Positions 14,021 to 31,201 of a stretch of DNA of 64,000 bases are shown here, one piece after another. Source of the DNA: Methylobacillus gramineus (GTDB taxonomy: Bacteria > Pseudomonadota > Gammaproteobacteria > Burkholderiales > Methylophilaceae). Below the pieces are notes generated by a model that made no database searches, was not told the DNA's origin, and saw only the letters and a program-made list of their open reading frames with translations. A program made the position numbers and the translations under genes. The first letter of the stretch is position 1, and the number at the start of each line of letters is the position of its first letter. The stretch spans positions 806,001 to 870,000 of the forward strand of contig NZ_JAJAVE010000001.1 of assembly GCF_020532675.1 (NCBI RefSeq), written 5' to 3'.

Positions 14021-14033
14021 ATCTTTCCTTGAT

Positions 14034-15131: not shown

Positions 15132-15247
15132 TGTTCATCCTTTCAAAAAAATGTGAGAAAAACCTGTCACTCAGGCTTTGGTTCCATTCCAACTGCTTCT
15201 CTTGTATCTATCATCAAGCTCATCCTGCACCTCAGGCTGATGAATCC

Positions 15248-16021
15248 TTATTGTTTCTTGCCCAGATAGGCATCCTGCAAAGCCGTGTTCTGCAGTAACT
15301 CCTGCGCAGTACCAGACAGCACGATCTTGCCGGTCTCCAGCACATACCCGTAATGCGCGTGCTTGAGCGCAACCGGGATGTTTTGCTCAGCCAGCAGAAA
15401 ACTCACGCCTTCTTTTTCATTGAGCTGGCTCACGATCTCGAATATCTCCTGTACGATCAAAGGAGCCAGCCCCATCGAAGGTTCGTCGAGCAGCACCATG
15501 GATGGGTTGGTCATCAACGCCCGCCCAATCGCAACCATCTGCTGCTCACCGCCAGAGGTATATCCCGCTTGCACTTTGCGTTTTTCCTTCAGCCGTGGAA
15601 ACCAGGTGTAAATGCGCTCCAGCCCTGCCTGCAGGCTCTGCCTGCTGGGTCGCCGCACAAATCCTCCACTACGCAGGTTCTCTTCCACTGTCAGGTGAGC
15701 AAACACATGACGGCCTTCCAGCACGTGAACAATCCCTTGCTGCACCAGTACATGAGGCGGCGTATGAGTGCTCATCTGCCCCTGGAAATGAATACTGCCG
15801 CTGCTCACCTCTGCCCGGTCTGCGCGCACCAGTCCGGAGATGGCCTTGAGCGTGGTGCTTTTTCCGGCACCATTGGCACCCAGCAACGCAATGATCGCGC
15901 CCTTGGGCACGGTCAGCGATACGCCGCTGACCGCAAGTACCGCACTGTCGTAAATGACTTCAATGTCATCCACCCGCAGTAGCTCAACGGACTCGGCATA
16001 AGGGTTGGCAATGGCACTCAT
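15248..16021 (-). CDS. livF: Liv-type ABC transporter ATPase LivF (intact copy)
   Basis: A 257-residue ATPase with Walker A LLGANGAGKSTTLKAI, LivF signature [14 protein letters not shown], Walker [14 protein letters not shown] and H-region LLAEQNIPVALKHAHYG. It ends in the usual DAYLGKKQ. This is the reference used here to read the lesions in the livF pseudogene at 7818-8582, to which it is closely related. With only one intact livF and two sets of livGHM in the run, it may serve both transporters (inference). Confidence 0.93.
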   Translation of the reverse strand: MSAIANPYAESVELLRVDDIEVIYDSAVLAVSGVSLTVPKGAIIALLGANGAGKSTTLKAISGLVRADRAEVSSGSIHFQGQMSTHTPPHVLVQQGIVHVLEGRHVFAHLTVEENLRSGGFVRRPSRQSLQAGLERIYTWFPRLKEKRKVQAGYTSGGEQQMVAIGRALMTNPSMVLLDEPSMGLAPLIVQEIFEIVSQLNEKEGVSFLLAEQNIPVALKHAHYGYVLETGKIVLSGTAQELLQNTALQDAYLGKKQ

Positions 16022-16123
16022 TTCATCACTCCGGTTGGCACGGCTGATGCGGTCATCACGGGGGCTATCGTCATCGTTTTATGTCTCCCAATCTCAACAT
16101 CAAGCGGTCGTACTGCTTGAACA

Positions 16124-17464
16124 TTACTTTTCCTTGCTCGGATCACGACGGGTAATGCCTTTTTCCTTGGCGTAGGCGGCAGACTTCGCCTCAACCAATG
16201 GTCGCAGGAGTGTTCGGTCAGCCTGAATCCAGTCGGTTTTCAGCTGCCACTGCTTGCCATCCCATTGCTGGATGCGTGCAGCACCGCCGCCCTCATGATC
16301 TTCTGGTGTAATGCGCAGAGGCTGCAGCAGGCCGTAGAAACCAATCTTCTTCAAACGTGCATCGTCAATCACCAAGTGCTCGAACGCCCAGCGTCCTTCT
16401 TCCCCATTCAAGGGGCGGTTGCCAAACTTGTTGTATCCGGTGCGCAAGGCTTCCACTGCCAGCACCGCATTGACCAGGCCTATGTTGTAATACACGGCAC
16501 CAAAGAATTTCTTGTCGCGCAGGTCGCTCTTGCCCGTATCCAGGATGTGCTTCTTCAGCTTCTGGTGAATGTCAAAACTGGCACCACCAGGATAAGGAGC
16601 CAAGGCTTGATAGCCTTTCGCAGCAGTACCTGCTGGGATCACATCAGCTTCGGAGCCTGCCCATACATCGCCGATGATGTGGTCAACAGGTATGCCGAAC
16701 CGTGCAGCAGTCTTGATTGCGACTGGGGTGGATACGCCCCAGGTACGCAGGAATACCCAGTCAGGCTTGATTTCACGCACACGACGCCATTGTGGCGATT
16801 GTTCATTCCCAGGGTCTGCTACCGGAATCTGGATATTCTCAAAGCCATACTTTTCGGCCAGCAGCTTGATCGCAGCCTGGGTTTCACGCCCGTATGCAGA
16901 GTCGTGATACACCGTCACAATCTTCTTGCCTTTAAGCTTGTCGAGCCCGCCTTCTTTCTGCGCAATGTATTTGATACCGGTAGATGCCTGGCTGTAGTAA
17001 TTGAACAACAGCGGGAAGGCATAAGGAAACACAGTGCCATCAGTAGATTCTGTGCGGCCACCAGCCGGGTCGATCAAGGGAATCTTGTCGATGGCTGCCT
17101 TCTCGATCAAGGCATAAGAAGCAGGTGTGCTATGCGTAAAGAAGAATGCCAGCGGAGATCCATTTTTCCCTTTCTTGACCCGCTCATATACCTCTACAGT
17201 GCGGTCTGGACTCCATTCCGTTTCAAACTCTTCGTAGTTGATCTTGACGCCGTTAATACCGCCTTCAACCTCATTGATGTAGCGAAAATAGTCCAATGTC
17301 CCCGCCCACCACAAAGTGCCGCTGGAAGCGTATGGCCCAACCCGGTAAGTAGGCAGTGGCACATATTGATCCGCGGCCTGACTGATTGCCGCGGTGCCGA
17401 GGCCCAGCGTGGCGGTCACGGCCACTGCCAGCACTGTGTTAAGAAGAAGAGGACGCTGAAACAT
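16124..17464 (-). CDS. Liv-type ABC transporter substrate-binding protein (copy 2)
   Basis: A periplasmic binding protein of about 446 residues, same family as copy 1. The signal peptide ends at AISQA-ADQYV. ATG at 17464 is preferred because AAGGAG lies 6 bases upstream; an in-frame TTG at 17497 overlaps the livM stop and has no such site. Shared blocks with copy 1 are YRVGPYASSGT, KGKKIVTVYHDSAYGRET and the C-terminal YAKEKGITRRDPSKE. The ligand is unknown; neighbours suggest an organosulfur compound. Confidence 0.88.
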   Translation of the reverse strand: MFQRPLLLNTVLAVAVTATLGLGTAAISQAADQYVPLPTYRVGPYASSGTLWWAGTLDYFRYINEVEGGINGVKINYEEFETEWSPDRTVEVYERVKKGKNGSPLAFFFTHSTPASYALIEKAAIDKIPLIDPAGGRTESTDGTVFPYAFPLLFNYYSQASTGIKYIAQKEGGLDKLKGKKIVTVYHDSAYGRETQAAIKLLAEKYGFENIQIPVADPGNEQSPQWRRVREIKPDWVFLRTWGVSTPVAIKTAARFGIPVDHIIGDVWAGSEADVIPAGTAAKGYQALAPYPGGASFDIHQKLKKHILDTGKSDLRDKKFFGAVYYNIGLVNAVLAVEALRTGYNKFGNRPLNGEEGRWAFEHLVIDDARLKKIGFYGLLQPLRITPEDHEGGGAARIQQWDGKQWQLKTDWIQADRTLLRPLVEAKSAAYAKEKGITRRDPSKEK

Positions 17465-17493
17465 GGTTAACTCCTTGAAAATATATTTGTTAT

Positions 17494-18576
17494 TCAAAAA
17501 CGTAATGGCCAGACGGATAATCTGCTGCGTGCATTCGTCAGCAGCCGTGCAATCCCTTCTGGCTCCTTGATCAGGAACCAGATAATCAATGTGCCAAAGA
17601 TGAATTTCTGGATGTTCTGCAACACTCCCGCATCAACCATCCCGGCAAACAGGGTTTGTGAGACGAAGTCGAGGGCCAGTGGCAATAGCGTGATGAAGGC
17701 CGCCCCGATGAAATTCCCGCTGATACTGCCCAGCCCTCCGATGATGATGATGAACAGGATTTGGAATGAGCGCTGTAAACTGAAACTCTGCACACCTGCC
17801 GACCCAAGGTAGACGAAGACCCAAAGCGCTCCGGCCACCCCCAGATAAAAAGAGCTGACTGCGAACGCGAGTATCTTGCTGTGATTGACACGGATGCCGA
17901 TGACCGCAGCAGCGGTATCCATGTCACGGATCGCCATCCAGTTGCGCCCGGTCTGGCTGCGCGTGAGATTGATGGCAATCCAGGTCAGCAATACCACCAC
18001 CCCTAATATCCAATAGTATTTTCCCTGCGCGCTGGAAATATCCAGGCCGAACACTTCAATGGAGGGAGATGAAATGGTCGCTGAGGAACTGTAGTTGTAA
18101 AACCACGGGAACTTCACGAACACCCATTCGAGCAAGAATTGTGCCGCCAAGCTGCTCACCATGAGGTAAAAGCCCTTGATCTTGGCACTGGGCAGACCGA
18201 AGATTAGGCCAACCAGCGCCGCTATCAAGCCACCCAGGAAGATGGCAACCGGGAAAGACAGATGCAGGTGGGTGAGAAATGCATAAGTAGCAAAAGCCCC
18301 CACTGCCATAAATCCACCTGAGCCCAGCGAAGTCTGCCCTGCATAACCAGTCAGCAGATTAAGACCCATTCCCGCAAGTGCGAGGATCAAGAATGGAATG
18401 ATGATGGCATTAATCCAGTATTCACTGCCCACCCAGGGTATGGCAGCAAGCACCAGCAGCCATAGCCAGGCATAAAGGGATTTGCCATCCTTGATCACTA
18501 CGGGAGCCAAATGAGCATCCAGGCGACCAGTGCGCGGCAGTATCGTTGTGTCGTTCATAGTGTGGTGGGTGTCCAT
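17494..18576 (-). CDS. livM: Liv-type ABC transporter permease LivM (copy 2)
   Basis: A 360-residue LivM-type permease with the signature GMGLNLLTGYAGQTSLGSGGFMAVGAF and coupling region GGLGSISGNFIGAAFITLLP. About ten transmembrane helices follow a 30-residue polar N-terminus. The start is uncertain: ATG 18576 (MDTHHT) and ATG 18558 (MNDTTI) both lack a good ribosome-binding sequence. It is closely similar to copy 1 at 10112-11179. Confidence 0.92.
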   Translation of the reverse strand: MDTHHTMNDTTILPRTGRLDAHLAPVVIKDGKSLYAWLWLLVLAAIPWVGSEYWINAIIIPFLILALAGMGLNLLTGYAGQTSLGSGGFMAVGAFATYAFLTHLHLSFPVAIFLGGLIAALVGLIFGLPSAKIKGFYLMVSSLAAQFLLEWVFVKFPWFYNYSSSATISSPSIEVFGLDISSAQGKYYWILGVVVLLTWIAINLTRSQTGRNWMAIRDMDTAAAVIGIRVNHSKILAFAVSSFYLGVAGALWVFVYLGSAGVQSFSLQRSFQILFIIIIGGLGSISGNFIGAAFITLLPLALDFVSQTLFAGMVDAGVLQNIQKFIFGTLIIWFLIKEPEGIARLLTNARSRLSVWPLRF

Positions 18577-18602
18577 ATCATCATCTGGCTAATATTCATG
18601 CG

Positions 18603-19484
18603 CTATACCCGCTCAATGGCACGTTCGCCAAAGAGTCCAGCCGGACGTATAAACAGAAAAGCCAAGGCGAGAAAATAGGCAAACCACCCGGTAATCCCAC
18701 CGCCAATAGCCGGCCCGATATAGGCCTCGGCCAGGTTCTCGGATGCACCGACAATCAAGCCGCCGGCAATCGCCCCGCCAATGGAAGTGAATCCTCCAAT
18801 AATGAGTACCGGTAATGCCTTGAGCACCACCAGGGATAATGAGAACTGCACACCCTGACGGGCGCCCCAGAGTATCCCAGCGACCAGTCCTGTCATCCCG
18901 GCAACCGCCCAGACGATCTGCCAGATATGATTAAGATTGATCCCGATCGACAATGCGGCCCGGGTGTCATCTGCCACAGCACGCAAGGAAATACCTATCC
19001 TGGTCTGGTTGAATAGCAGCGCCAGCACAGTGACCAGGATCACGGCAGTCACCGCAGCCACCAGATCAAACTGACTGACCAGCAGATCACCGATGAATAT
19101 AGGCACATCATCAATGCCCAGATCCAGTTCATGAACCGTCGCCCCCATCACGCCTTGCGCGATGCCTTCTATGGCGTAGGAAAGTCCGAGCGTCGCCATG
19201 AATAAGGTCATTGGACTGCGATTGGTCAGGGGCCGCAATACGAGTTTTTCGATCAGTATGGCGAGCAGAACCAAGGCCAGAATGGTCAGCAGTATCGCAA
19301 CAACGAATGGCACTCCGGCTTCATGCAAGGTCACGAATAACAATGCAGAGAACAGCAGGATCGATCCCTGTGCAAAATTGAATACGCCGCTAGCCTTGTA
19401 GATCAGCACAAAGCCAATGGCAACCAATGAATACATAGTGCCTGCAAGCAATCCACCTATCAGGGTTTCAAGGAAAAGCATCAT
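18603..19484 (-). CDS. livH: Liv-type ABC transporter permease LivH (copy 2)
   Basis: A 293-residue permease, the same length as copy 1 and sharing the block GGLLAGTMYSLVAIGFVLIY and the end RPAGLFGERAIERV. The coupling loop is GGFTSIGGAIAGGLIVGASE. About eight transmembrane helices. It starts only 9 bases after livG (copy 2), so the two are probably translationally linked. The start is ATG 19484 or the next codon, also ATG. Confidence 0.93.
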   Translation of the reverse strand: MMLFLETLIGGLLAGTMYSLVAIGFVLIYKASGVFNFAQGSILLFSALLFVTLHEAGVPFVVAILLTILALVLLAILIEKLVLRPLTNRSPMTLFMATLGLSYAIEGIAQGVMGATVHELDLGIDDVPIFIGDLLVSQFDLVAAVTAVILVTVLALLFNQTRIGISLRAVADDTRAALSIGINLNHIWQIVWAVAGMTGLVAGILWGARQGVQFSLSLVVLKALPVLIIGGFTSIGGAIAGGLIVGASENLAEAYIGPAIGGGITGWFAYFLALAFLFIRPAGLFGERAIERV

Positions 19485-19493
19485 GCATCTCCC

Positions 19494-20297
19494 TTAATGC
19501 ACCGAGCCCGGTGTGATTGCCCCCAGATAGGCGGCGATCACATCGGGATTTGCTTGTACTTCTGCCGGGGTACCATCCCCCACTTTGCGTCCGTAATCGA
19601 GTACCACGACATGATCAGACAGATCCATGGTGACCCTCACATCATGTTCAATCAGCACCACCGTGATCCCAAGGTCACGATTGATATCCGCGATAAAACG
19701 ACTCATCTCCTGCTTTTCCTCGGCATTCATGCCCGCCATCGGCTCATCCAGCAACAGCAAACGCGGTGATGCGACCAATGCACGCGCCAGTTCCACGCGT
19801 TTTTGCAAGCCGTATGCCAAGTTCCCAACCATGGTGTAGCGATGAGACTGTAATTCCAGGAACTCAAGTACGGCTTCGCTTCTCTCGAGGAACTCAGCTG
19901 ATTCTCGACGTGCCCGCGGAAGTTTGAATGCATGTTCGATAAAGTTGGATCGTCCATGCCGTGACAGACCACTGAGCGTGTTGTCGATCACGCTCATCTT
20001 CTTGAAGAGCGCGATGTTCTGAAAAGTGCGTCCTATCCCGCGCTGCGCAGCCTGGAATGGATGCACCTTGTGGAAATGTTCACTCTCATAATGAATTTCA
20101 CCAGAATCAGGGGTGTAAACGCCATTAAGTACGTTGAGCAATGAACTCTTGCCCGCACCATTGGGCCCTATCAGCGCGCATATTTCACCGCGCTGCACGG
20201 AAAACGAAAGACTGGTGATAGCTTTCACACCTTGAAAAGACAAGGAGATATCCCTGACATCCAGGATAATGTTGCCTGCATGAGAGAGGGTCGTCAT
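19494..20297 (-). CDS. livG: Liv-type ABC transporter ATPase LivG (copy 2)
   Basis: A 267-residue ATPase with Walker A GPNGAGKSS, signature AYGLQKRVELARAL, Walker B RLLLLDEP and switch His LIEHDVRV. The start at 20297 (MTTLSHAG) is chosen over an in-frame ATG at 20321 because AGGAG lies 8 bases upstream and the ATG overlaps the stop of the upstream monooxygenase gene (ATGA). It belongs to the first transporter of the run. Confidence 0.92.
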   Translation of the reverse strand: MTTLSHAGNIILDVRDISLSFQGVKAITSLSFSVQRGEICALIGPNGAGKSSLLNVLNGVYTPDSGEIHYESEHFHKVHPFQAAQRGIGRTFQNIALFKKMSVIDNTLSGLSRHGRSNFIEHAFKLPRARRESAEFLERSEAVLEFLELQSHRYTMVGNLAYGLQKRVELARALVASPRLLLLDEPMAGMNAEEKQEMSRFIADINRDLGITVVLIEHDVRVTMDLSDHVVVLDYGRKVGDGTPAEVQANPDVIAAYLGAITPGSVH

Positions 20298-21703
20298 GCC
20301 GATTTCTCCTGGGCTTGCCATGCTTGCTGCTTGCGCTTGATGCGTTCAATGTCTCGATAGCGTGCGGCCGGATGTGTGGATGGCAGATAGGGGCCATCGC
20401 CAAACAGCTTTTCGCGCAGCGTGCCTTCTTTATACTCTGTGGCATAGACACCACGCCGCTGCAGTTCGGGTACCAAGTACTCAACCACATCCTCAAAGGT
20501 TTCGTGGGCGACTGCGTAGGCCAGATTGAAGCCATCCAGATCGGTTGCTTCCATCCACTGCTCCAGCTGGTCAGCTACCGTCGCTGGCGAGCCAACAAAC
20601 AGGGGGCCAAGACCGCCCACACTGGCCCATTTGGCCAGCTCTTCAATCGTCCAGGTCTTGCCGCCTTCAGCCAGATGCTCAACCGCGGAAATGATGGCAT
20701 TAGTCTCGACTTTGCGTACATTGTCGGTAGGGGCATAGCGACCGAAATCGATGCCTGTCCAGCCCGAAGTCAATACCAAGGCGCCATCATAAGACCCGTA
20801 GCTCTGATACTCCTTGAGCTTGGCATGGGCCTTGGCATCGGTTTCGTCGACCACAATAGTGACCAGTGCATAAATCAAGATCTTGCCAGGGTCACGTCCA
20901 GCTACCGCAGCACGGTTGCGGATATCTTCTACATAAGCCCGTGTGATGTCCTGCGTTGGTGTGGAAATGAACACCAGCTCTGCATTCTCAGCAGCAAAAT
21001 CTTTGCCAGCATTGGAGGCACCCGCCTGGAACAGTACTGGCGTACGTTGCGGCGAAGGTTCGCATAAGTGATATCCCGGCACTTCAAAGTATTGTCCTTT
21101 GTGCCCAATTTCATGGATCTTCTCTGGGATCGCAAAAATCCCGTTTTCACGATCCCTGACCACAGCACCTTCTTCCCAGCTGCCCTCGAACAGCTTGTAA
21201 AGCACTTCGAGGTATTCGTTAGCCACTTCATAGCGATTGTCGTGGCGCTTGAGTCCACCCTGACCAATGTTCTTGGCCCCACTTTCCAGATAGGACGTGA
21301 CGATATTCCAGCCTACTCGACCTTTGGTGTGATGGTCAGCCGTCGATAGACGGCGAGCAAAGGTATACGGATGCTCAAACGAAGTTGACGCGGTGATGCC
21401 TATTCCCAGGTGCTTGGTTGCCAATGCAATCGGATTGGCCAGTTGCAGGGGGTCATTGACCGGAATCTGTACGCCCTGCAAAAACGCATGGTCGTTATTG
21501 CCATGATAGACATCGTAATAACCAATTACATCAGCAATGAAAATGGCATCAAAAATACCTCGCTCCAATATCCTGGCCAAATCAGTCCAGTATTCGAGGT
21601 CTTTATACTGCCAGGCGCGATCACGCGGATGTCTCCATAAACCCGGCGACTGATGACCCACGCAATTCATCTCGAAAGCGTTAAATCGAATAGCTTTAGA
21701 CAT
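20294..21703 (-). CDS. NtaA/SnaA/DszA-family FMNH2-dependent monooxygenase, DmoA-like
   Basis: A 469-residue luciferase-like monooxygenase of the NtaA/SnaA/DszA (SoxA) family. The N-terminus RFNAFEMNCVGHQSPGLWRH and blocks IFIADVIGYYDVY, GRVGWNIVTSYL, CEPSPQRTPVLFQAGAS and WTGIDFGRY strongly resemble dimethylsulfide monooxygenase DmoA. Family members cleave C-S or C-N bonds using FMNH2 supplied by a separate reductase. The true substrate cannot be fixed from sequence: dimethylsulfide, a sulfone or an aminopolycarboxylate are all possible, and the setting favours a sulfur compound. It lies between msuE (28-base gap) and livG (4-base overlap). Confidence 0.85.
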   Translation of the reverse strand: MSKAIRFNAFEMNCVGHQSPGLWRHPRDRAWQYKDLEYWTDLARILERGIFDAIFIADVIGYYDVYHGNNDHAFLQGVQIPVNDPLQLANPIALATKHLGIGITASTSFEHPYTFARRLSTADHHTKGRVGWNIVTSYLESGAKNIGQGGLKRHDNRYEVANEYLEVLYKLFEGSWEEGAVVRDRENGIFAIPEKIHEIGHKGQYFEVPGYHLCEPSPQRTPVLFQAGASNAGKDFAAENAELVFISTPTQDITRAYVEDIRNRAAVAGRDPGKILIYALVTIVVDETDAKAHAKLKEYQSYGSYDGALVLTSGWTGIDFGRYAPTDNVRKVETNAIISAVEHLAEGGKTWTIEELAKWASVGGLGPLFVGSPATVADQLEQWMEATDLDGFNLAYAVAHETFEDVVEYLVPELQRRGVYATEYKEGTLREKLFGDGPYLPSTHPAARYRDIERIKRKQQAWQAQEKSA

Positions 21704-21731
21704 CAGTGACTCCAGCTGCTGAGGTTGATCA

Positions 21732-22304
21732 TCAAGCCTCCACCGACTCTTTGGTGGTGGCGGATGCGAGCTGGGTGAGGAATGGCAATGCCCTGCCTAC
21801 TGCCAAGGTAATGCGCGCCTGAAGCGCCTCACTGCTGATCTCGTATTCCTCAAAATCCGCTTCGCTGGCGTAGACACCCAGGGGCAATGTCAGGGCCTGG
21901 AAGAAGCTGAATAAGGGGCGCAATTGATGATCAATCACCAGTGCATGTCGCTCGCTCCCACCTGTGGCCGCAAGTAGAATCGGGGTGTTGATCAGCGATT
22001 CGTGATAGACAAAATCAAACAGGTGCTTGAACAATCCGGTGACAGAAGCACGGTAGACTGGAGTCGCCACGACCAGCAAGTCTGCTTCCTCAATCAGACT
22101 GATTTCATCCACTGCAGACTTGGGGAGATCAAGACGGCTCAAACTGCTACCGAGTACCGGCCCCAGTGTTTTCAACTCGATCACATGCAGCTCAATGGGC
22201 AAGTGCTGTTGCAGCTCATGCACAATGGCCCGCAGTAATACGGTAGTACGCGATGGATCACTGAGACTGCCGGAAACGGCAACCAGTTTCAGTTTTCTGC
22301 TCAT
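21732..22304 (-). CDS. msuE: NAD(P)H-dependent FMN reductase MsuE
   Basis: A 190-residue flavodoxin-fold reductase. AVSGSLSDPSRTTVLL binds FMN phosphate, and ATPVYRASVTGLFKHLFD is the second flavin/NADPH segment of the SsuE/MsuE family. It supplies free FMNH2 to the two-component monooxygenases encoded downstream (DmoA-like, SfnG) and elsewhere in the island (SsuD, SfnB and DszC types). It is the first gene after the sigma-54 promoter at 22371-22386 and is the only FMN reductase in the window. Confidence 0.92.
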   Translation of the reverse strand: MSRKLKLVAVSGSLSDPSRTTVLLRAIVHELQQHLPIELHVIELKTLGPVLGSSLSRLDLPKSAVDEISLIEEADLLVVATPVYRASVTGLFKHLFDFVYHESLINTPILLAATGGSERHALVIDHQLRPLFSFFQALTLPLGVYASEADFEEYEISSEALQARITLAVGRALPFLTQLASATTKESVEA

Positions 22305-22370
22305 AATGACTCCAGTCTACTTATTCTTTTTTGCAATGGTTTCAGCCCATGCAAATAACAATTAGTAGAT

Positions 22371-22386
22371 AGCAGCATCCGTGCCA
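22371..22386 (-). promoter_or_regulatory. Sigma-54 promoter of the msuE operon
   Basis: Minus strand TGGCACGGATGCTGCT: -24 half TGGCACG is perfect and -12 half CTGCT differs by one base from TTGCW. GG and GC are at the exact 12-base register. Transcription would start near 22360, about 55 bases before msuE. Confidence 0.8.
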
Positions 22387-22471
22387 GCATTAAAAATATA
22401 TAAAATTCAGACAGTTATATAAATTTCCTCATCCAAATGCATGTTGATATCCATGCTGAATGCTGAACAAC

Positions 22472-22487
22472 TGCTTGTATATCAGCA
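22472..22487. promoter_or_regulatory. Candidate SfnR enhancer site (msuE side)
   Basis: TGCTTGTATATCAGCA: its reverse complement is identical, base for base, to the site at 30927-30942. Sixteen identical bases in two separate control regions is unlikely to be chance. It lies 86 bases upstream of the msuE -24/-12 element. Confidence 0.65.
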
Positions 22488-22536
22488 GCACAATGAAGCA
22501 GATTTCTATTAAATACCCCGAATACCCCTACTAGTA

Positions 22537-22552
22537 TGCTGATTAATCAGCA
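22537..22552. promoter_or_regulatory. Candidate SfnR enhancer site (sfnB side)
   Basis: TGCTGATTAATCAGCA is a perfect 16-bp palindrome, 86 bases upstream of the sfnB -24/-12 element. It shares TGCT-N8-AGCA with the other sites. Confidence 0.65.
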
Positions 22553-22637
22553 CCCATAAAGCAACCTGCTGTTTGAATAGGTGCACACCGGACATAATTT
22601 ATAAATAATATTGTTAAGAATCAATCGGATGGATTCG

Positions 22638-22653
22638 TGGCACGTTAAATGCA
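22638..22653 (+). promoter_or_regulatory. Sigma-54 promoter of sfnB (first copy)
   Basis: TGGCACGTTAAATGCA: perfect -24 half and ATGCA in place of TTGCA at -12, in the exact register. Transcription would start near 22664, about 55 bases before the start codon. Confidence 0.8.
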
Positions 22654-22717
22654 GTGTGTAGTATCAGATAGTCACATCCCGTGTATATCGCCTTAACCAT
22701 TTTTTTGAGGGTTATCC

Positions 22718-23953
22718 ATGACTGATACATCGGTACTGCTGGAAGACGCAGACACTAAAGAAATCACCCGCCCGCAGGCGCATATCATTAAGAGTGATGC
22801 GGAAGCCATAGAAGTGGCTAAACGCGTTGCAGCAGAAATTTCCAAGGAAGCAGGCATTCGCGACGCAGAACGTCGCTTGCCACGTGCAGAGTTGGACCTG
22901 TTCTCGCAAAGCGGCCTCTGGGGCATTACTGTTCCCAAGGAATACGGTGGCGCGTTTGTTTCCAACACCACCCTGGCAGAAGTGATTGCCATTATTTCCG
23001 AGGCTGACCCTAGCATAGGCCAGATCCCGCAAAATCACCTATATATGGTGGAAGGCATACGCCTGGATGGCAGTGAATTCCAGAAGCAGTTTTTCTTTGC
23101 TCTGGTATTACAAGGCGTGCGCTTCGGCAATGCCTTCTCGGAAATTGGTACTAAATCCGTCAGCGACGTGCAGACGCGGATCAAACCAACAGAGGGTGGA
23201 TATCTGCTCTCCGGCAAAAAATTCTACTCATCCGGGGCTCTGCTTGCAGACTGGGTACCCGTAGTGGCAAAGAACGAGCACGATGACACTATCGTCGCCT
23301 TTGTCAAAAAAGGCGCCAAAGGCCTAACCATTATTGACGACTGGTCCAGCTTCGGCCAACGCACAACGGCAAGCGGCACCACCATTCTGGAAGAGATTTT
23401 TGTACCCACTGAATATGTGCTTCCACACCATCTGGCATTTGATCGTCCCACTACCATGGGGCCAATCGCGCAGATCATTCAAGCAGGCGTGGACACCGGC
23501 ATCGCACGGGCAGGCCTGCGTGACACCATCCAATTCGTACGTAATCATACGCGTCCATGGATAGATACCGATCTGGAGCACGGCTATGAAGATCCCCTGA
23601 CGATCAAGGATATAGGCGATACCCAGATCCGTGTGCACGCCACCGATGCCTTGCTCAAACGTGCCGGAGAGTTTATTGATATCGCCCAGCAGAACCCGAA
23701 TGAAGAAACGGTAGCAGCAGCCTCTATTGCGGTAGCAGAAGCCAAGGTACTAAGTACGGAAACTGCATTGCATGCTGGCAGCAAGCTATTTGAGCTAGCA
23801 GGCACACGGTCGACACTGGCGCAGTTCAATCTGGATCGACACTGGCGCAATGCCCGTACTCACACGCTGCATGACCCGGTACGCTGGAAATACTATGCCG
23901 TGGGTAATTACGCGCTGAATGGCGTCAATCCACCACGGCACCCTTGGATCTAG
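22718..23953 (+). CDS. sfnB: SfnB-family sulfur acquisition oxidoreductase (copy 1)
   Basis: A 411-residue acyl-CoA-dehydrogenase-fold flavoprotein of the SfnB/DszC subgroup. FSQSGLWGITVPKEYGG is the N-terminal domain signature. SSFGQRTTASGT lies in the beta domain near the flavin, and [37 protein letters not shown] closes the C-terminal domain as in SfnB. These proteins use FMNH2 as monooxygenases rather than oxidising CoA esters, and SfnB is linked to dimethylsulfone/sulfonate use in Pseudomonas; the exact reaction is not settled. A second copy lies at 25758-26978. Confidence 0.9.
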   Translation: MTDTSVLLEDADTKEITRPQAHIIKSDAEAIEVAKRVAAEISKEAGIRDAERRLPRAELDLFSQSGLWGITVPKEYGGAFVSNTTLAEVIAIISEADPSIGQIPQNHLYMVEGIRLDGSEFQKQFFFALVLQGVRFGNAFSEIGTKSVSDVQTRIKPTEGGYLLSGKKFYSSGALLADWVPVVAKNEHDDTIVAFVKKGAKGLTIIDDWSSFGQRTTASGTTILEEIFVPTEYVLPHHLAFDRPTTMGPIAQIIQAGVDTGIARAGLRDTIQFVRNHTRPWIDTDLEHGYEDPLTIKDIGDTQIRVHATDALLKRAGEFIDIAQQNPNEETVAAASIAVAEAKVLSTETALHAGSKLFELAGTRSTLAQFNLDRHWRNARTHTLHDPVRWKYYAVGNYALNGVNPPRHPWI

Positions 23954-23996
23954 CATTGTTTCAAGCGTGCTCTGATGCCATGACACACGCCATCTG

Positions 23997-24030
23997 GGCA
24001 TGCGCTAGCTACACGGCAATAGCGCATGCC
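23997..24030. repeat. Inverted repeat after sfnB
   Basis: Perfect 11-bp arms ggcatgcgcta and tagcgcatgcc with a 12-base loop, 43 bases after the sfnB stop. There is no T tract. It may stabilise or end the sfnB message by a factor-dependent route. The rest of the 279-base gap before the carbonic anhydrase gene shows no gene or clear promoter. Confidence 0.5.
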
Positions 24031-24232
24031 AACCTGGCTGGAGGTTACTGTAAGCACGCATCCCGCACCTGATCAAAGGCCCGGATTGGCGCGCACTGTA
24101 TACCCTGCAACGTTCGGCATCTGATGCACTGTTCTTGAGATGAATGACTCAGAATGCTTCTAGCTTGACGGCTGCAAAGGTACCCCCAAAACCACGTCAG
24201 CATATAGATGCTGCCAACAGGAGATTCGCGAT

Positions 24233-24814
24233 ATGAGTACCTTACTGAAAGAAGTGTTAGATGCGAACCAGCGTTATAGCCATGACTTTTCCAAAGGCGA
24301 TCTGGCCATGCCGCCAGCCCGCCAATTTGCCATACTGACGTGTATGGATGCGCGGTTGGACCCTGCGAAATACGCCGGACTGTCCGAAGGTGACGCGCAT
24401 GTCATCCGCAATGCTGGCGGCCGAGCCAGTGACGATGCCATCCGCTCACTGGTGATTTCTTACAAACTGCTGGGCACGCGTGAATGGTTTGTCATTCACC
24501 ACACCAATTGCGGCATGGAAACTTTCACTAATGACATCATCAGTGATTTGCTCAGCCAAAGCCTGGAAACCGCCAGTGTGGATAGCCAGGGCTGGCATGA
24601 CCATGGCAAAGGACCTGGGGCACCTGAAGGGAAATTTATCCACTGGCTGACCATTCAGGATCTGGCAGATAGCGTGCTGGAAGATGTGGTGCGTATCCGA
24701 TCTCACCCTCTGGTCCCGCATACCATTCCTATCCACGGCTATATCTATGATGTCAAAACCGGAAAACTGAATGAAGTACCTGCAGCCACAGCTGCAGGTA
24801 AGGTGGTCAATTAA
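24233..24814 (+). CDS. Beta-class carbonic anhydrase
   Basis: A 193-residue zinc enzyme that interconverts CO2 and bicarbonate. Zinc ligands are Cys37 in C-x-D-x-R (CMDARLDP) and His90-x-x-Cys93 (HHTNCG); Asp39-Arg41 is the catalytic dyad and [17 protein letters not shown] completes the family pattern. The start follows CAGGAG-type sequence. It lies between two sulfur gene groups but has its own terminator and no visible -24/-12 promoter, so membership in the sulfur regulon is not shown. Confidence 0.88.
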
Positions 24815-24896
24815 ACTCTGGGGGGCCACGCTTCCTAATGAAAATTGCAACCACATCAACTTTCCTGACTTAACGATAGCGCTGGCTTTGACTGAG

Positions 24897-24926
24897 CGGC
24901 ACCTTGCATAAAGGTGCCGTTTTTTA
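24897..24926 (+). terminator. Intrinsic terminator after carbonic anhydrase gene
   Basis: Stem CGGCACCTT/AAGGTGCCG with a 5-base loop followed by TTTTTT. Confidence 0.9.
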
Positions 24927-24933
24927 TTCACCA

Positions 24934-24979
24934 TACTTATATACAAGCACAATATCAGCAGGATGCTGATATATGAACG
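24934..24979. promoter_or_regulatory. Candidate SfnR enhancer region upstream of ompW
   Basis: Two related elements: TACTTATATACAAGCA (24934-24949), which matches 14 of 16 bases of the site at 30927, and TGCTGATATATGAACG (24964-24979), which matches its first ten bases. Between them lies an inverted repeat ATATCAGCA-GGA-TGCTGATAT (24952-24972). The elements end 73 and 43 bases before the -24/-12 promoter. Confidence 0.55.
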
Positions 24980-25021
24980 CCTGTAAAAATTAACATCTAT
25001 TAAAAATCATGATGTTAGCCA

Positions 25022-25037
25022 TGGCATGGAATCTGCA
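25022..25037 (+). promoter_or_regulatory. Sigma-54 promoter of ompW-sfnB-metY
   Basis: TGGCATGGAATCTGCA: -24 half TGGCATG and -12 half CTGCA each differ by one base from consensus; GG and GC are in exact register. Transcription would start near 25048. Confidence 0.7.
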
Positions 25038-25114
25038 CTACATCCTTACTTAGTGCAACACCATCACCATTGGCTGGCACTTTTGCAATTACTTCTCTAA
25101 TTACAAAAGGAATT

Positions 25115-25741
25115 ATGATGCCACAACTGCAATACTCCCGTTTTACCCTTCCTTTAATTCTGGCTTCGCTCACCATGAGCCAGGCTTATGCAGATCAAGC
25201 TGATCTGTCACCTTGGCAAGTACGGGCAGGAGTCTCGCTGATTGCCCCCAAATCAAATAATGGTGCCATTATTGATCATACGGCAGATGTCACCATCGAT
25301 AACCGTGCAGGGCCGACAGTCAATATTGCGTATTTCATTGCCCCCAACTGGGCAATCGATCTGTTTGGTGGGCTGGCATTCAAACACCAGATCAATGTCA
25401 ATGGTAATCGTGCTGGTGAAACCAAGCATTTGCCGCCTATCCTCAGTCTGCAATACCATTTCAGACCAGAAGCAACCCTGCGCCCTTATGTGGGCGTTGG
25501 TCTGAACTACACCGCCTTTACGGATGAAAAACTGGACAACGGCGCGCGGTTAAAGCTACGTGACTCGTGGGGCCCGGCCCTCCAAGTTGGGCTGGATTAT
25601 GCCTTTGATCAGCACTGGACCATAGGCGCTGATGTCCGCTATGCCCGCATTAATACCAAGACCAGCATCAATGGCACTGCGGTGGGTGATGTAGACATCA
25701 ACCCCACTGTGTACACCCTCAACGTCGGCTATCGTTTCTAA
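25115..25741 (+). CDS. ompW: OmpW-family outer membrane protein
   Basis: A 208-residue eight-stranded beta-barrel protein. The signal peptide ends at QAYA-DQADL. WQVRAGVSLIAPKSN, FIAPNWAIDLFGG and the terminal YTLNVGYRF are typical of OmpW, a small channel for hydrophobic or small amphipathic molecules. The start ATG 25115 (or the adjoining ATG at 25118) has AAAGGA upstream. It lies directly behind a sigma-54 promoter and 16 bases before sfnB copy 2, which suggests it admits the organosulfur substrates (inference). Confidence 0.9.
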   Translation: MMPQLQYSRFTLPLILASLTMSQAYADQADLSPWQVRAGVSLIAPKSNNGAIIDHTADVTIDNRAGPTVNIAYFIAPNWAIDLFGGLAFKHQINVNGNRAGETKHLPPILSLQYHFRPEATLRPYVGVGLNYTAFTDEKLDNGARLKLRDSWGPALQVGLDYAFDQHWTIGADVRYARINTKTSINGTAVGDVDINPTVYTLNVGYRF

Positions 25742-25757
25742 TAAAAAAGGAATCATC

Positions 25758-26978
25758 ATGAGTCAAGACACCATTGCCCTACCACGCTTTGAAACCATAG
25801 CCCACCGTATCAGCAGCGATGAGGAGGCCATCAGCGTCGCCCATCAACTGGCTGAACAATTCCGGAAAGAAGCCTCTGAACGGGATCGTGACAGGCGCCT
25901 GCCTGTTGCCGAGCTGGATGCATTTTCCCAAAGCGGTTTATGGGCGATTACCATCCCCAAAGCCTATGGCGGTGTAGGCGTTTCTTATCGCACACTGGGC
26001 GAAGTCATCCGCATTATTTCTGCCGTGGATCCTTCACTGGGCCAATTGCCCCAAAACCACCTGGTCGTAGTGGAACATCTCATCCTGGATGCCAGCGAAG
26101 CACAAAAGCAGTTTTTCTTTGAGCTGGTGCTCAAGGGAGCACGTTTCGGCAATGCCTTTTCTGAAAAAGGCAGCCGTACCGTGGCAGAGTTTGAGACCAA
26201 GATCAGCCCGGATGGCGCTGGCTATGTGGTAAATGGCACCAAGTTCTTTTCAACAGGTGCATTGCTAGCGCACTGGATTCCTATCGTGGTGGTAGATGAC
26301 GCAGGATTGCCACATCTGGCCTTGGCTGAGCAAGGCACTCCCGGGCTGCAGGTAGTCAATGATTGGTCCAGCTTTGGTCAGCGTACTACGGCGAGCGGGA
26401 CGGTCATTATCGATCAGGTCAAGGTACCGAGTGAGCATGTGGTGCCGATTTACCAGGCCTTTGCCCGCCCGACGATTGGCGGCCCTACCTCTCAGTTCAT
26501 CCAGGCTGCGGTCGATGCCGGTATTGCACAGGGAGCCGTTGAGGCGGCTATCAGCTATGTTCGCCAGCACGCCAGGCCATGGATAGATGACAAACACAGC
26601 CAGCGTGCCAGTGAAGACCCTTATACCATCCAGCAGATTGGTGATCTTGAGTTACGCCTGCATGCCGCAGAGGCCTTGCTGGATCGTGCCGCTGACAAGA
26701 TCAGCAGTGCCGCCGCCAACCCCAGCGAAGCAACAGTAGCGGCCGCCTCCATCGCCGTCGCAGAAGCCAAGATATTGACCACCGAGATTGCCCTGCTCGC
26801 CAGCAATAAACTGTTTGAGCTTTCCGGCACACGCTCCACCCTAGAGGAATACAACCTGGACCGCCATTGGCGCAATGCGCGTACCCATACGTTGCACGAC
26901 CCGGTCCGCTGGAAATTTCACGCGATCGGCAACTATTACCTTAACGAGATCAATCCGCCAAGGCATCCCTGGCTATAA
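25758..26978 (+). CDS. sfnB: SfnB-family sulfur acquisition oxidoreductase (copy 2)
   Basis: A 406-residue paralogue of the protein at 22718-23953, with the same FSQSGLWAITIPKAYGG, SSFGQRTTASGT and [21 protein letters not shown] blocks. It belongs to the FMN-dependent SfnB subgroup of the acyl-CoA dehydrogenase fold. An AAAAGGA ribosome-binding site precedes the start. It is co-transcribed with ompW and probably metY. The differences between the copies are spread over the substrate-facing parts, so they may act on different sulfur compounds (inference). Confidence 0.9.
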   Translation: MSQDTIALPRFETIAHRISSDEEAISVAHQLAEQFRKEASERDRDRRLPVAELDAFSQSGLWAITIPKAYGGVGVSYRTLGEVIRIISAVDPSLGQLPQNHLVVVEHLILDASEAQKQFFFELVLKGARFGNAFSEKGSRTVAEFETKISPDGAGYVVNGTKFFSTGALLAHWIPIVVVDDAGLPHLALAEQGTPGLQVVNDWSSFGQRTTASGTVIIDQVKVPSEHVVPIYQAFARPTIGGPTSQFIQAAVDAGIAQGAVEAAISYVRQHARPWIDDKHSQRASEDPYTIQQIGDLELRLHAAEALLDRAADKISSAAANPSEATVAAASIAVAEAKILTTEIALLASNKLFELSGTRSTLEEYNLDRHWRNARTHTLHDPVRWKFHAIGNYYLNEINPPRHPWL

Positions 26979-26991
26979 GCAAACAAGCAAT

Positions 26992-27026
26992 CAGTATAAA
27001 TGCGGTCTTGTACCGCATTTATACTG
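26992..27026 (+). repeat. Strong inverted repeat before metY
   Basis: Perfect 14-bp arms (26992-27005 and 27013-27026, cagtataaatgcgg) with a 7-base loop, between sfnB copy 2 and metY. No T tract follows (GTAGAAAAC), so it is not a standard terminator. It may attenuate or protect the downstream message. Confidence 0.6.
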
Positions 27027-27064
27027 TAGAAAACAACAACACTAAATTCTAATAGGAGGACATG

Positions 27065-28336
27065 ATGAAACCAGAGACCCTAGCCATTCACGCCGGTTAT
27101 CGCCCCGACCCGACAACCAAGGCGGTTGCGGTCCCCATTTACCAGACCTCATCCTACGCATTTGACAACACCCAGCATGGTGCTGACCTTTTTGATCTCA
27201 AGGTGCAGGGCAATATCTACACCCGTATCATGAACCCGACCAATGCGGTCCTGGAAGACCGCCTCACCCAGCTCGAAGGCGGTATAGGCGCACTGGTACT
27301 GGCTTCAGGCATGGCAGCTACCACCTATGCAATCCAGACGATTGCTGAAGCAGGAGACAATATTGTTTCCGTGTCCACTCTTTACGGTGGCACCTACAAC
27401 CTGTTCGCCCACACCTTGCCCAAGCAAGGGATTGAAGTACGTTTTTTCGACTATCGCGATCCAGAAAGCCTGGCCAAGTTGATCGACAGCCGCACCAAGC
27501 TAGTGTTTGCCGAGACCATAGGCAACCCACTAGGGAACGTCGTCGACCTGGAAGCGATTACCAAAGTGGCGCATGCTCACGGCGTGCCAGTGATTGTCGA
27601 CAATACGGTCGCTACCCCGCTGCTGTGCCGTCCTTTCGATTTTGGCGTGGATATTGTCGTACACTCGCTGACCAAATACATCGGGGGTCACGGTAACTCT
27701 ATAGGCGGCGCGATTGTAGATAGTGGCCGCTTTCCCTGGGGTGAGCACAAAGAGCGCTTTCCCACCCTCAATACCCCAGACCCCAGTTACCATGGCGTCA
27801 ACTATGTAGAGGCACTGGGCGCTGCTGCGTTCATTGCGAGAGCACGTGTCGTACCATTGCGTAACACCGGCGCTGCACTGAGCCCATTCAACACTTTCCT
27901 GTTCCTGCAAGGCCTGGAAACACTGGCTTTGCGCATAGAACGCCATAGCGACAATGCATTGAAGATTGCGCAGTACCTCAAGCAACATGCCAAGGTCAAA
28001 TGGGTGAAATATGCTGGCCTGCCAGACCATCCGGAGCATGGCTTGGTGCAACGCTACCTCAAGGGCAAGGCCTCCGGCATTCTGACCTTTGGCGTGCAAG
28101 ATGGCTTGTCTGGCGGCACACGCTTTATCGATGCATTGCAACTATTTACGCGGCTTGTGAATATTGGTGATGCCAAGAGCCTGGCTTGCCACCCAGCGAC
28201 CACCACTCATCGCCAACTGAACGAGACAGAACTTGCCGCCGCTGGCGTCAGTATCGACATGGTAAGGTTGTCCGTCGGTATTGAGCATGTAGATGATCTG
28301 ATTGCAGATCTTGAGCAGGCATTAGCCAAGGTATAA
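27065..28336 (+). CDS. metY: O-acetylhomoserine sulfhydrylase
   Basis: A 423-residue PLP enzyme of the Cys/Met metabolism family that makes homocysteine from O-acetylhomoserine and sulfide. The PLP Lys is Lys204 in VVHSLTKYIGGHG. MNPTNAVLEDRLTQLEGG and GDAKSLACHPATTTHRQL are MetY hallmarks. ATG 27065 is preferred over the adjoining ATG at 27062 because AGGAGG lies 5 bases upstream rather than 2. Within this island it would trap sulfide from desulfonation directly into homocysteine. Confidence 0.93.
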   Translation: MKPETLAIHAGYRPDPTTKAVAVPIYQTSSYAFDNTQHGADLFDLKVQGNIYTRIMNPTNAVLEDRLTQLEGGIGALVLASGMAATTYAIQTIAEAGDNIVSVSTLYGGTYNLFAHTLPKQGIEVRFFDYRDPESLAKLIDSRTKLVFAETIGNPLGNVVDLEAITKVAHAHGVPVIVDNTVATPLLCRPFDFGVDIVVHSLTKYIGGHGNSIGGAIVDSGRFPWGEHKERFPTLNTPDPSYHGVNYVEALGAAAFIARARVVPLRNTGAALSPFNTFLFLQGLETLALRIERHSDNALKIAQYLKQHAKVKWVKYAGLPDHPEHGLVQRYLKGKASGILTFGVQDGLSGGTRFIDALQLFTRLVNIGDAKSLACHPATTTHRQLNETELAAAGVSIDMVRLSVGIEHVDDLIADLEQALAKV

Positions 28337-28371
28337 ACCCAGACAAGTACACTTACAACTGCTAAATAGAC

Positions 28372-28405
28372 AATAAAAAAGCCCGGTTTCCCGGGCTTTT
28401 TTATT
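28372..28405. terminator. Bidirectional intrinsic terminator between metY and dszC-like gene
   Basis: A 15-bp stem aataaaaaagcccgg/ccgggcttttttatt with a 4-base loop gives T tracts on both strands. It lies between two converging genes. Confidence 0.92.
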
Positions 28406-28411
28406 GCATGC

Positions 28412-29617
28412 TCAGGAGTAAAACGAAGGCGCAGGATATTGCTGATTCAGCGCCCAATCGCCAAGCTCTTTCAGCTTGAAATCCACCGGGTCATGCAGGG
28501 TATACACGCGGAGGTTGCGCCAGAACCGGTCCAGCCGCAGTGCAGCCGTGGTGGCACGTGCACCAGTCACCTCAAACATGCGGTGGGTGATGTCCAAGCC
28601 AGCTTTGGTAGTGGCTACTTTGGCAGCCGTTACCGCAATCGCTACTTCACCACGTTCTTGCAGCGTTAATGATTCCGCTTTGTTCCATGCCGCATCCAGC
28701 AACTCGGCAGCGCGATTGGTCAGCAAGCGGGCGCCTTCAAGTGCTACCCAAAACTCGCCATAGTGCAGCAAGGTATAAGGTTCGGACTGAATTTCACTGG
28801 CCAGCGACCCAGACCAGACTCGCGACTGTTTGAGTGTATAGCGCCTGGCTTCTGCCAGTGCGCCTTCGGCAATGCCAAGGTAGATATTGGAAAATATCAA
28901 TTGCGCAATCAATGGGCGCAAGCATGCAAAAGGCGTACTGAGCGGGCCCGGGTCGGTTAGCAGCTCATCCGCCTCAACCCGCACATGCTCAAAATCCGCA
29001 CTGCCACTATCAGTCTGGCGCTGGCCAATATTGTCCCAGTCGTCATGCAGGGTGATACCGTCACGTGCAGTGGGAATGGCAGCAATCAACAGTTTGCCAG
29101 TTTCAGCATCTATGGCAGACGCAATCAGCATGTCTGAATCCGTAGCACCAGAGCAAAAGCTCTTGTTGCCATGGAATTCGCGTTGGCCCAGATGTACCTT
29201 GCTAGTAGTGCGCAAATCCAGCGGATTGAGGGCATTGCCCCAGAACCAGTTGTTTGCTGCTGTTTGGCGAAACCATGGCTGCCATTGAGACTCGGTGCCA
29301 AACAAGCGCACGGTAGCCAGCATCAGGTGTTGAAAGCCAAAGACCTGAGCAACAGAGCTATCGACGCGTGCAAACTCCCGCACGATTTCCAGGGTTGGTT
29401 GCCAGCCTTGTCCCAAGCCGCCCAAGGACTGCGGAATCAGCAGCGATAGCAGTCCACTTGCACGGATGGCATCGCGTTCTGCTTTGGGCGTGCCGCCTGC
29501 CTGATCGCGCTGCACTGCAGTCTTGGCAAATGCTGCTGCCAGCCTGCTTGCCTGTGCCTGTGGTGTTAAGACATCATGCTGATGGTGTGCTTGTGCTAAT
29601 AGCCCTGCTTCACTCAA
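28412..29617 (-). CDS. DszC/SfnC-type flavin-dependent monooxygenase (copy 1)
   Basis: A 401-residue acyl-CoA-dehydrogenase-fold protein of the DszC-like group. [27 protein letters not shown] and [15 protein letters not shown] are the conserved flavin/substrate segments, and LDRFWRNLRVYTLHDPVDFKLKELGDWAL closes the C-terminal domain. DszC oxygenates organic sulfides using FMNH2; the substrate here is unknown. It follows ssuD by 36 bases on the minus strand and would be transcribed from the sigma-54 promoter at 30860-30875. It shares its length and all main motifs with the gene at 31202-32410. Confidence 0.85.
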   Translation of the reverse strand: MSEAGLLAQAHHQHDVLTPQAQASRLAAAFAKTAVQRDQAGGTPKAERDAIRASGLLSLLIPQSLGGLGQGWQPTLEIVREFARVDSSVAQVFGFQHLMLATVRLFGTESQWQPWFRQTAANNWFWGNALNPLDLRTTSKVHLGQREFHGNKSFCSGATDSDMLIASAIDAETGKLLIAAIPTARDGITLHDDWDNIGQRQTDSGSADFEHVRVEADELLTDPGPLSTPFACLRPLIAQLIFSNIYLGIAEGALAEARRYTLKQSRVWSGSLASEIQSEPYTLLHYGEFWVALEGARLLTNRAAELLDAAWNKAESLTLQERGEVAIAVTAAKVATTKAGLDITHRMFEVTGARATTAALRLDRFWRNLRVYTLHDPVDFKLKELGDWALNQQYPAPSFYS

Positions 29618-30817: not shown

Positions 30818-30859
30818 CATACTTTCCTTGTGCTTGAATGTTGCTTCAGCATTAAGTTC

Positions 30860-30875
30860 AGCAAAGAGCATGCCA
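30860..30875 (-). promoter_or_regulatory. Sigma-54 promoter of ssuD-dszC
   Basis: Minus strand TGGCATGCTCTTTGCT: -24 half TGGCATG and a perfect -12 half TTTGCT, in exact register. Transcription would start near 30849, about 30 bases before ssuD. Confidence 0.8.
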
Positions 30876-30926
30876 TTACATAACCATATGATTTTTAGTG
30901 GTTTAATAAAACCACCGTCTGTACAT

Positions 30927-30942
30927 TGCTGATATACAAGCA
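30927..30942. promoter_or_regulatory. Candidate SfnR enhancer site
   Basis: TGCTGATATACAAGCA, the exact reverse complement of the site at 22472-22487. It lies 52 bases behind the ssuD -24/-12 element. Confidence 0.65.
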
Positions 30943-30956
30943 CACAGGTGCTGCTC

Positions 30957-30972
30957 TGCTTCCATGGAAGCA
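30957..30972. promoter_or_regulatory. Candidate SfnR enhancer site (palindrome)
   Basis: TGCTTCCATGGAAGCA, a perfect 16-bp palindrome sharing TGCT-N8-AGCA. It lies 82 bases behind the ssuD promoter and 179 bases before the dszC promoter. Confidence 0.55.
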
Positions 30973-31150
30973 ATAATCCGCCACTCTATTTCCGGGATAT
31001 TTTCTTTTATTTCGCCGCAGATGGATTAGAGCCCAGCATCCCACAAGATAACGCAATCCATCTAAAGCCTGATAGCGCGGGCTTGGGCGCAATACGCACT
31101 GACATGCGAATGCAAAATCTGCCTTCCTAGCAGCAATCTTTCACCATGAC

Positions 31151-31166: not shown

Positions 31167-31201
31167 ACATAAATTATATAAGCGAGTAAGGAATATAACT
31201 T

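Follow-up and report, generated by a model that had tools for sequence, protein, structure and literature searches.

The msuE/sfnB control region of Methylobacillus gramineus probably consists of two autonomous SfnR/sigma-54-type promoters placed back to back

SfnR acting with sigma-54 is an already known system. In Pseudomonas it reportedly controls sfnFG, sfnA and related genes, and the sfnR operon of P. putida is itself said to be activated by CysB and repressed by SfnR; in that species CysB sets the SfnR level. NifA/IHF-type sigma-54 promoters such as nifH have a comparable build, with upstream dyads (TGT-N10-ACA in the case of NifA), a -24/-12 element and an IHF-type site between them. 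Bacteria also have divergent promoters whose enhancers are shared or paired, and enhancer-dependent bacterial promoters are usually thought tolerant of variable enhancer distance.

In P. aeruginosa, SfnG, SfnR1 and MsuCDE are among the proteins raised under sulfur starvation, according to an excerpt of PMC12581299. In Ralstonia solanacearum, rpoN mutants grew normally on aliphatic sulfur sources according to an excerpt of PMC4676750, an observation that counts against the sigma-54 role being universal. Here, we present an analysis of 64,000 nt of the Methylobacillus gramineus genome (GCF_020532675.1, contig NZ_JAJAVE010000001.1, positions 806,001 to 870,000; hereafter the window), centred on the region between the divergent genes msuE and sfnB. 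We consider it highly probable, from the arrangement of its sites, that this region represents two autonomous SfnR/sigma-54 promoters lying back to back, and neither one coupled switch nor the control of a whole organosulfur run.

Gene setting and sites of the divergent region

The genes on which the analysis depends are the following.

21732-22304, minus strand: msuE (FMN reductase), head of a co-directional run down to 8667
14034-15131: sfnG, within the msuE-headed run (profile match)
22718-23953, plus strand: sfnB, an SfnB-family sulfur acquisition oxidoreductase (profile match)
32365-33531, plus strand: sfnR, a sigma-54 activator with a GAFTGA motif, an AAA+ domain and a weak C-terminal Fis-type helix-turn-helix (HTH)

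The leftward run headed by msuE also holds an NtaA/DmoA-type monooxygenase gene and ABC transport genes, and the rightward order is sfnB, a carbonic anhydrase-like gene, a hairpin, ompW, a second sfnB (sfnB2) and a metY-like gene, the last named by inspection. The models of sfnG, msuE, sfnB and ssuD, which are genes of dimethyl sulfone and sulfonate use, all score above their cut-offs. A domain search of the window SfnR found no receiver domain and an HTH_8 match slightly below the 22-bit cut-off (20.7 bits, E 3.5e-4); the true start of sfnR may lie further in than 32365. After sfnR stands ribA (GTP cyclohydrolase II, 33569-34240), which would fit the flavin demand of two-component monooxygenases.

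Elsewhere the genome carries rpoN (one match, PF04552, E 1.4e-67), ihfA (TIGR00987, above cut-off) and a second sfnR (L020:4472-5608, with L020 denoting G000:C1:918000-930000) beside a second msuE (5666-6217). The product of this second gene, SfnR2, is 61% identical to the window SfnR in the activator part, and the recognition-helix stretch is nearly alike in the two proteins (SRNILRARL vs SRNIVRARL). Eight other activator-type matches in the genome, and one marginal match, have lower scores.

Between msuE and sfnB, the sites are arranged as two outward arms.

22371-22386, minus strand: -24/-12 (sigma-54-like) element of the msuE arm, TGGCACGGATGCTGCT (motif scan; in relatives likewise before msuE, gap 84-86)
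22405-22417, minus strand: degenerate IHF-like site of the msuE arm, two mismatches (found by eye; register as in the msuE arms of relatives)
22442-22457, minus strand: degenerate second dyad AGCATGGATATCAACA, +30 of the msuE arm (inverted-repeat search)
22461-22464, minus strand: AGCA half-site, +23 of the msuE arm (arm alignment)
22472-22487, no strand: primary dyad of the msuE arm, TGCTTGTATATCAGCA, of the form TGCT-N8-AGCA
22537-22552, no strand: primary dyad of the sfnB arm, TGCTGATTAATCAGCA, a perfect palindrome
22560-22563, plus strand: AGCA half-site, +23 of the sfnB arm (arm alignment)
22567-22582, plus strand: degenerate second dyad TGCTGTTTGAATAGGT, +30 of the sfnB arm (from the sequence)
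22619-22631, plus strand: IHF-like site AATCAATCGGATG, one mismatch, 6 nt before the -24 element of the sfnB arm
22638-22653, plus strand: -24/-12 element of the sfnB arm, TGGCACGTTAAATGCA (motif scan)

The -24/-12 consensus is TGGCACGNNNNTTGCW, and both TGGCACGGATGCTGCT and TGGCACGTTAAATGCA differ from it by a single mismatch in the -12 part, with GG and GC at the fixed spacing. An earlier sequence-only reading of this DNA had described the two outward elements and two TGCT-N8-AGCA repeats exactly 86 bases from them; elements and repeats are there, and the 86 is correct as a coordinate difference, the gap from dyad to element being 85 nt on the msuE and on the sfnB side alike. The 16-mer TGCTGATTAATCAGCA recurs, identical, upstream of the second msuE at L020, 95 nt from TGGCACTTTTATTGCT. 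With up to one mismatch allowed, the msuE arm of the window gave no IHF-like match, and it is counted as a miss in the 43-arm survey described below. Both window spacers contain outward-pointing sigma-70-like matches (9/12; 22423-22395 on the minus strand and 22582-22609 on the plus strand), given which an ordinary promoter may be present there; over 8500-28450 such matches are fewer than in shuffled sequence (12 vs 17.5).

Taken singly, the motifs are frequent. The window holds nine TGCT-N8-AGCA dyads against 2.3 expected (0/100 shuffles reach nine) and 28 elements with up to two mismatches against 17.8 expected (1/100 shuffles reaches 28), so that a dyad or an element alone is weak evidence and their combination is strong. 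The pattern dyad-N76-106-TGGCAY-N6-TGC occurs at five places in the whole 3.05-Mb genome, namely before a porin-like ORF, msuE, sfnB and ssuD in the window and before the second msuE elsewhere, and the reversed-pattern control gave none; a looser pattern, dyad-N70-100-TGGCAC, likewise has five places.

Spacing in relatives and association with SfnR

The spacing is conserved in relatives. In eight genomes with divergent msuE and sfnB both arms were recognised, all 16 gaps are 83-86 nt, and the first gene behind the element was confirmed as msuE or sfnB in 16/16 arms. Three of the elements (G003 msuE, G026 msuE and G029 sfnB) score under the scan threshold and were first located by inspection at the expected place. 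The gaps (msuE arm/sfnB arm, in nt) and the dyad-to-dyad start distances are given below.

Window: 85/85, distance 65
G003: 85/84, distance 62
G001: 84/84, distance 65
Methylophilus sp. 13: 86/84, distance 65
G026: 84/83, distance 86
G029: 85/83, distance 138
G407: 85/86, distance 50
G209: 85/85, distance 62

Because the arm gaps stay at 83-86 nt while the dyad-to-dyad distance ranges from 50 to 138 over the eight genomes, each dyad appears to be tied to its own promoter, and the 85/85 mirror symmetry of the window would be a consequence of two copies of one geometric rule. In five further genomes (G004, G283, G395, G312 and G223) the msuE arm lacks a mirrored partner and its gap is still 85; an outward element is absent within 700 nt in three of these and lies much further off in G283, and the gene opposite the lone arm of G004 is of the ompW type. 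These cases share ancestry, as the eight two-arm genomes fall into two families (f1, to which Methylophilus presumably belongs, and f5) and G283, G395, G312 and G223 belong to one genus. When the spacers were compared with those of the window (12 comparisons), five were within 0.08 identity of shuffled copies and all were within 0.19, with length unchanged.

Across the order, two motif-only scans of 399 Burkholderiales genomes returned 79 and 60 rows, 139 in total, whose gaps peak at 84 (9 rows) and 85 (14 rows), with any other gap represented by at most seven. Searching with the 70-residue C-terminus of the window SfnR (E <= 1e-6) found the SfnR HTH in 30/399 genomes. A total of 76 rows fall in 23 of these 30 genomes and 63 rows in 57 of the 369 others. 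Among the former, 24/76 rows lie at gaps of 83-86 (4.9 expected if uniform) and 12 at 51-54, compared with 5/63 (4.1 expected) and four in the genomes without the SfnR HTH. Counted by genome, a row at 83-86 is present in 12/30 carriers of the HTH vs 5/369 non-carriers (Fisher 1.5e-11), and in 9/27 vs 5/369 with the own genus left out (1.3e-8), P values that are optimistic in that genomes and rows share ancestry. The remaining 18/30 carriers gave no match at 83-86. Rows at the remaining gaps are also enriched in SfnR genomes (21/30 vs 52/369), and for this reason only the shape of the gap distribution singles out 83-86.

What lies downstream is consistent with this association. In 16 fetched regions, 26/36 dyad-element pairs are followed by a homologue of a protein from the window or the second locus (msuE, sfnB, ssuD, DszC-like, sfnR-linked or porin); the other 10 are not, and some of these are spurious ORF picks, e.g. 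at the ssuD element of G407. Five genomes match at 83-86 without the SfnR HTH (G057, G083, G121, G135 and G356), and in G057, G135 and G356 the first downstream ORF was never a homologue of a window protein (0/3). Three carriers of the HTH, G093 (L213), G268 (L216) and G021 (L220), have a dyad and element at gaps of 83-85 with a next ORF matching no window protein, at L213 possibly a large membrane transporter; all three pairs were kept in the 399-genome counts, and L213 and L216 also among the 43 arms. Of 37 named genomes searched, 14 had a row, which in 10 of them (5/18 Pseudomonas, 4/9 Burkholderia-type and one Lonsdalea) precedes a sulfur gene.

SfnB homologues were tried as a proxy for the module and rejected: 77/80 named loci had no dyad-plus-element pair within 700 nt upstream, leaving 3/80 with one (L063, L064 and L127), and TGCT ranks 8th of 256 arm sequences at N8. 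As the SfnB-homologue loci are mostly without the module, our claim is limited to SfnR carriers. A composite pattern including the +23 half-site matched 1/369 class-level genomes, the own one only, at three places. A DszC-like/SfnR fusion protein, to which long open frames in G209 and Burkholderia sp. D-99 seemed to point, was likewise rejected; its N-terminal half matches no window protein, is arginine-rich and reads as out-of-frame sequence.

The arms share additional features. We surveyed 43 arms with gaps of 82-87 or 93-97 from 29/33 chosen loci, and since arms were selected for dyad and element at set gaps, only the extra features (AGCA and TGCT positions and IHF-like sites) are independent of the selection. 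Counted from the dyad start, AGCA at +23 is present in 27/43 arms (shuffle mean 0.15, max 3), TGCT at +30/31 in 17/43 (0.27, max 4) and AGCA at +42/43 in 18/43 (0.32, max 4); among 25 arms from outside the family, 12, 11 and 12 carry them, respectively. Many arms therefore have tandem dyads 30-31 bp apart, about three helical turns. IHF-like sites with up to one mismatch occur in 25/43 spacers (mean 4.3 and max 10 in 500 shuffles), and in 9/25 arms outside the family against 0.76 expected; they cluster 17-18 nt (14 hits, one orientation) or 5-6 nt (7 hits, the other orientation) ahead of the -24 element. A Rayleigh test on the gaps at 10.5 bp gave R 0.41 (p ~3e-6) for genomes with SfnR vs R 0.08 for those without; periods of 10 and 11 scored nearly as high, and the rows depend on one another through tandem dyads 30 bp apart and kinship between genomes.

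Further modules and competing readings

The window has two further modules (ssuD/DszC-like-sfnR and porin) and probably a third (ompW).

30860-30875, minus strand: -24/-12 element of ssuD, TGGCATGCTCTTTGCT, gaps of 51 to the near and 81 to the far dyad
30927-30942, no strand: dyad TGCTGATATACAAGCA, exact reverse complement of the msuE-arm dyad at 22472-22487
30957-30972, no strand: dyad TGCTTCCATGGAAGCA, perfect palindrome, 30 bp from the preceding dyad
31151-31166, plus strand: -24/-12 element TGGCACGATAACTGCT before the DszC-like gene and sfnR, gaps of 178/208 to the two dyads
5431-5476, plus strand: two dyads 30 bp apart, TGCTTTTCCATCAGCA and TGCTTTTTCAAAAGCA, of the porin module (motif scan)
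5531-5546, plus strand: weak -24/-12 element TGGCATACTAAATGCC before the porin-like ORF, gaps of 84 and 54
5654-6778: porin-like ORF, named by inspection
24934-24949, plus strand: one-mismatch dyad TACTTATATACAAGCA of the ompW module, gap of 72 to the ompW element
25022-25037, plus strand: -24/-12-like element TGGCATGGAATCTGCA, two mismatches, before ompW and sfnB2 (motif scan)
25070-25741: ompW

The first of these modules is a second divergent sulfur control region (30818-31201) with two -24/-12 elements, which separates ssuD from the DszC-like gene and sfnR and is not symmetric, its gaps being 51/81 on one side and 178/208 on the other. The near dyad stands at 51-52 from the ssuD element in six genomes. 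On the DszC-like/sfnR side, for which seven genomes were examined, the other gap pairs are 176/206, 154/184, 154/184, 144/175 and 196/227; G001 and G004 carry extra dyads near 30 and 110, and in G209 two dyads stand at 53/84. The DszC-like gene has an apparent TTG start at 31202, and the surrounding AAGGAATATAACTTTTGGCTAT is conserved in G003 and G001 and almost fully in G004.

The porin module is conserved in G003 with gaps of 83 and 53, and a Pfam search of the ORF behind it gave no match. At ompW, a probable separate element would serve ompW-sfnB2-metY. With up to two core mismatches allowed, no ompW dyad at a gap of 72 was found in G004 or G029, and in G029 a dyad lies at a gap of 43 instead. 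In the pair scan, 20 block shuffles gave no pairs, a result that we do not take as a P value. A terminator-like hairpin of 12 pairs (24894-24922) precedes ompW; such hairpins are overall not commoner than in shuffles (21 vs 18.6).

These modules bear directly on the claim of the sequence-only reading that the region is a paired switch opening the whole organosulfur run in both directions at once. The sequence does not support that scope: separate elements stand before ssuD, before the DszC-like gene with sfnR, before the porin and probably before ompW-sfnB2-metY, and the hairpin precedes ompW. That the two dyads cooperate as a unit to open both promoters together is also unlikely. The exact symmetry of the window and G209 (85/85) and of G001 (84/84) would suit such coupling, as would a dyad spacing of 65 bp, near six helical turns, in three genomes, but the full series of spacings (50, 62, 62, 65, 65, 65, 86 and 138) accompanies arm gaps that stay at 83-86, the five lone msuE arms keep their 85 nt with no mirrored partner, single arms occur at the second msuE and at the porin, and the other divergent region is asymmetric. 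The symmetry as a chance arrangement of common motifs has next to no probability: each motif is frequent alone, yet the arrangement is conserved in eight genomes and the gap peak appears in SfnR genomes.

Two other readings concern the protein that would bind the dyads. T-N11-A is the box of the LysR family and is, by inspection, contained in TGCT-N8-AGCA, so that the dyads could serve CysB or another LysR-type regulator as operators at ordinary promoters, for which the two outward sigma-70-like matches in the spacers are candidates. We nevertheless hold this to be very unlikely: the dyads lie at locked distances from the -24/-12 elements, and the distribution of the module follows that of the SfnR HTH (30/399 genomes), CysB presumably being far more widespread. 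In favour of CysB, an excerpt of PMC12581299 names it as a putative regulator of msu and sfn. It is possible, if rather doubtful, that the paralogue SfnR2 is the main regulator of these genes or that both SfnRs share the regulon. The similarity of the two proteins in activator part and recognition helix, and the identical palindrome TGCTGATTAATCAGCA at the msuE of the SfnR2 locus, point that way; against it, the module carriers G283, G395, G312 and G223 show one SfnR HTH match each (E <= 1e-6), 62% identical to the window SfnR.

We thus retain two autonomous promoters back to back as the best explanation. The combination of sigma-54-like promoters, a distant enhancer site and an SfnR-type activator, already proposed in the sequence-only reading, is supported by sequence, with rpoN and two sfnR genes present and a module that follows the SfnR HTH over 399 genomes. 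From the sites, their fixed gaps, their conservation and their co-occurrence with SfnR, we infer SfnR binding, IHF bending, sigma-54 dependence and a response to sulfur limitation. SfnR-type dimers (SfnR and/or SfnR2) would bind TGCT-N8-AGCA on each side, probably joined by the neighbouring AGCA half-site (+23) and the second dyad (+30), the latter degenerate in the window. The bound dimers would form an AAA+ ring and contact the sigma-54 polymerase 85 nt downstream, across a short loop of fixed length between dyad and promoter that is probably bent by IHF. Once sulfate is exhausted and SfnR is produced, transcription would proceed leftward through msuE and its run, sfnG among it, and rightward through sfnB, and the common activator would open both arms together, yet as separate units. 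The lack of a receiver domain in SfnR suggests that the signal may be the SfnR level.

An extension of this model, which we offer tentatively and expect to fail sooner than to hold, is a ruler in which dyads stand only on rungs about one helical turn apart (~52, 63, 72, 84-85, 95 and 101-103 nt), with IHF in one of two registers and sfnR itself behind such a promoter. With priming by the second SfnR, SfnR would then turn on its own operon and all arms in an all-or-none manner.

Comparison with known systems

The locus resembles the Pseudomonas SfnR system in its SfnR-type activator without a receiver domain, its sigma-54-like elements and its overlapping gene content (msuE, sfnG and sfnB). Within the named Pseudomonas genomes, 5/18 have a dyad and element, either before sfnG (gaps 94, 103 and 103; thus 3/18 genomes with a dyad in the sfnG arm) or before an SsuA-like binding protein (94 and 63). 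The gaps of 83-86 in the msuE/sfnB arms described here therefore differ from the 94-103 of the Pseudomonas sfnG arms, and sfnR stands behind a -24/-12-like element, unlike the CysB-activated sfnR operon of P. putida. Among the listed records of a literature search, the primary P. putida operator papers aside, we recognised no description of an SfnR operator; the conserved gap ruler together with the layout of tandem dyads plus IHF-like site across families may be new.

With nifH-type promoters the arms share upstream dyads, a putative intervening IHF-type site, a -24/-12 element and an expected dependence on helical face; the dyad, the signal and the genes are different, and the gap appears more rigid here. 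With divergent promoters that use paired enhancers they have in common two outward promoters in one intergenic region, but in the present case either promoter is paired with an enhancer of its own, whose distance is conserved, and it is the dyad-to-dyad distance that varies. The distance is kept within 4 nt across 16 arms in eight genomes, though much of the intervening DNA has changed, and a simple pattern suffices to find the module. The arms thereby lend themselves to testing how activation depends on enhancer distance, helical face and IHF bending, and they help to annotate the organosulfur regulon and sulfur-starvation genes from sequence in Methylobacillus and other beta-proteobacteria.
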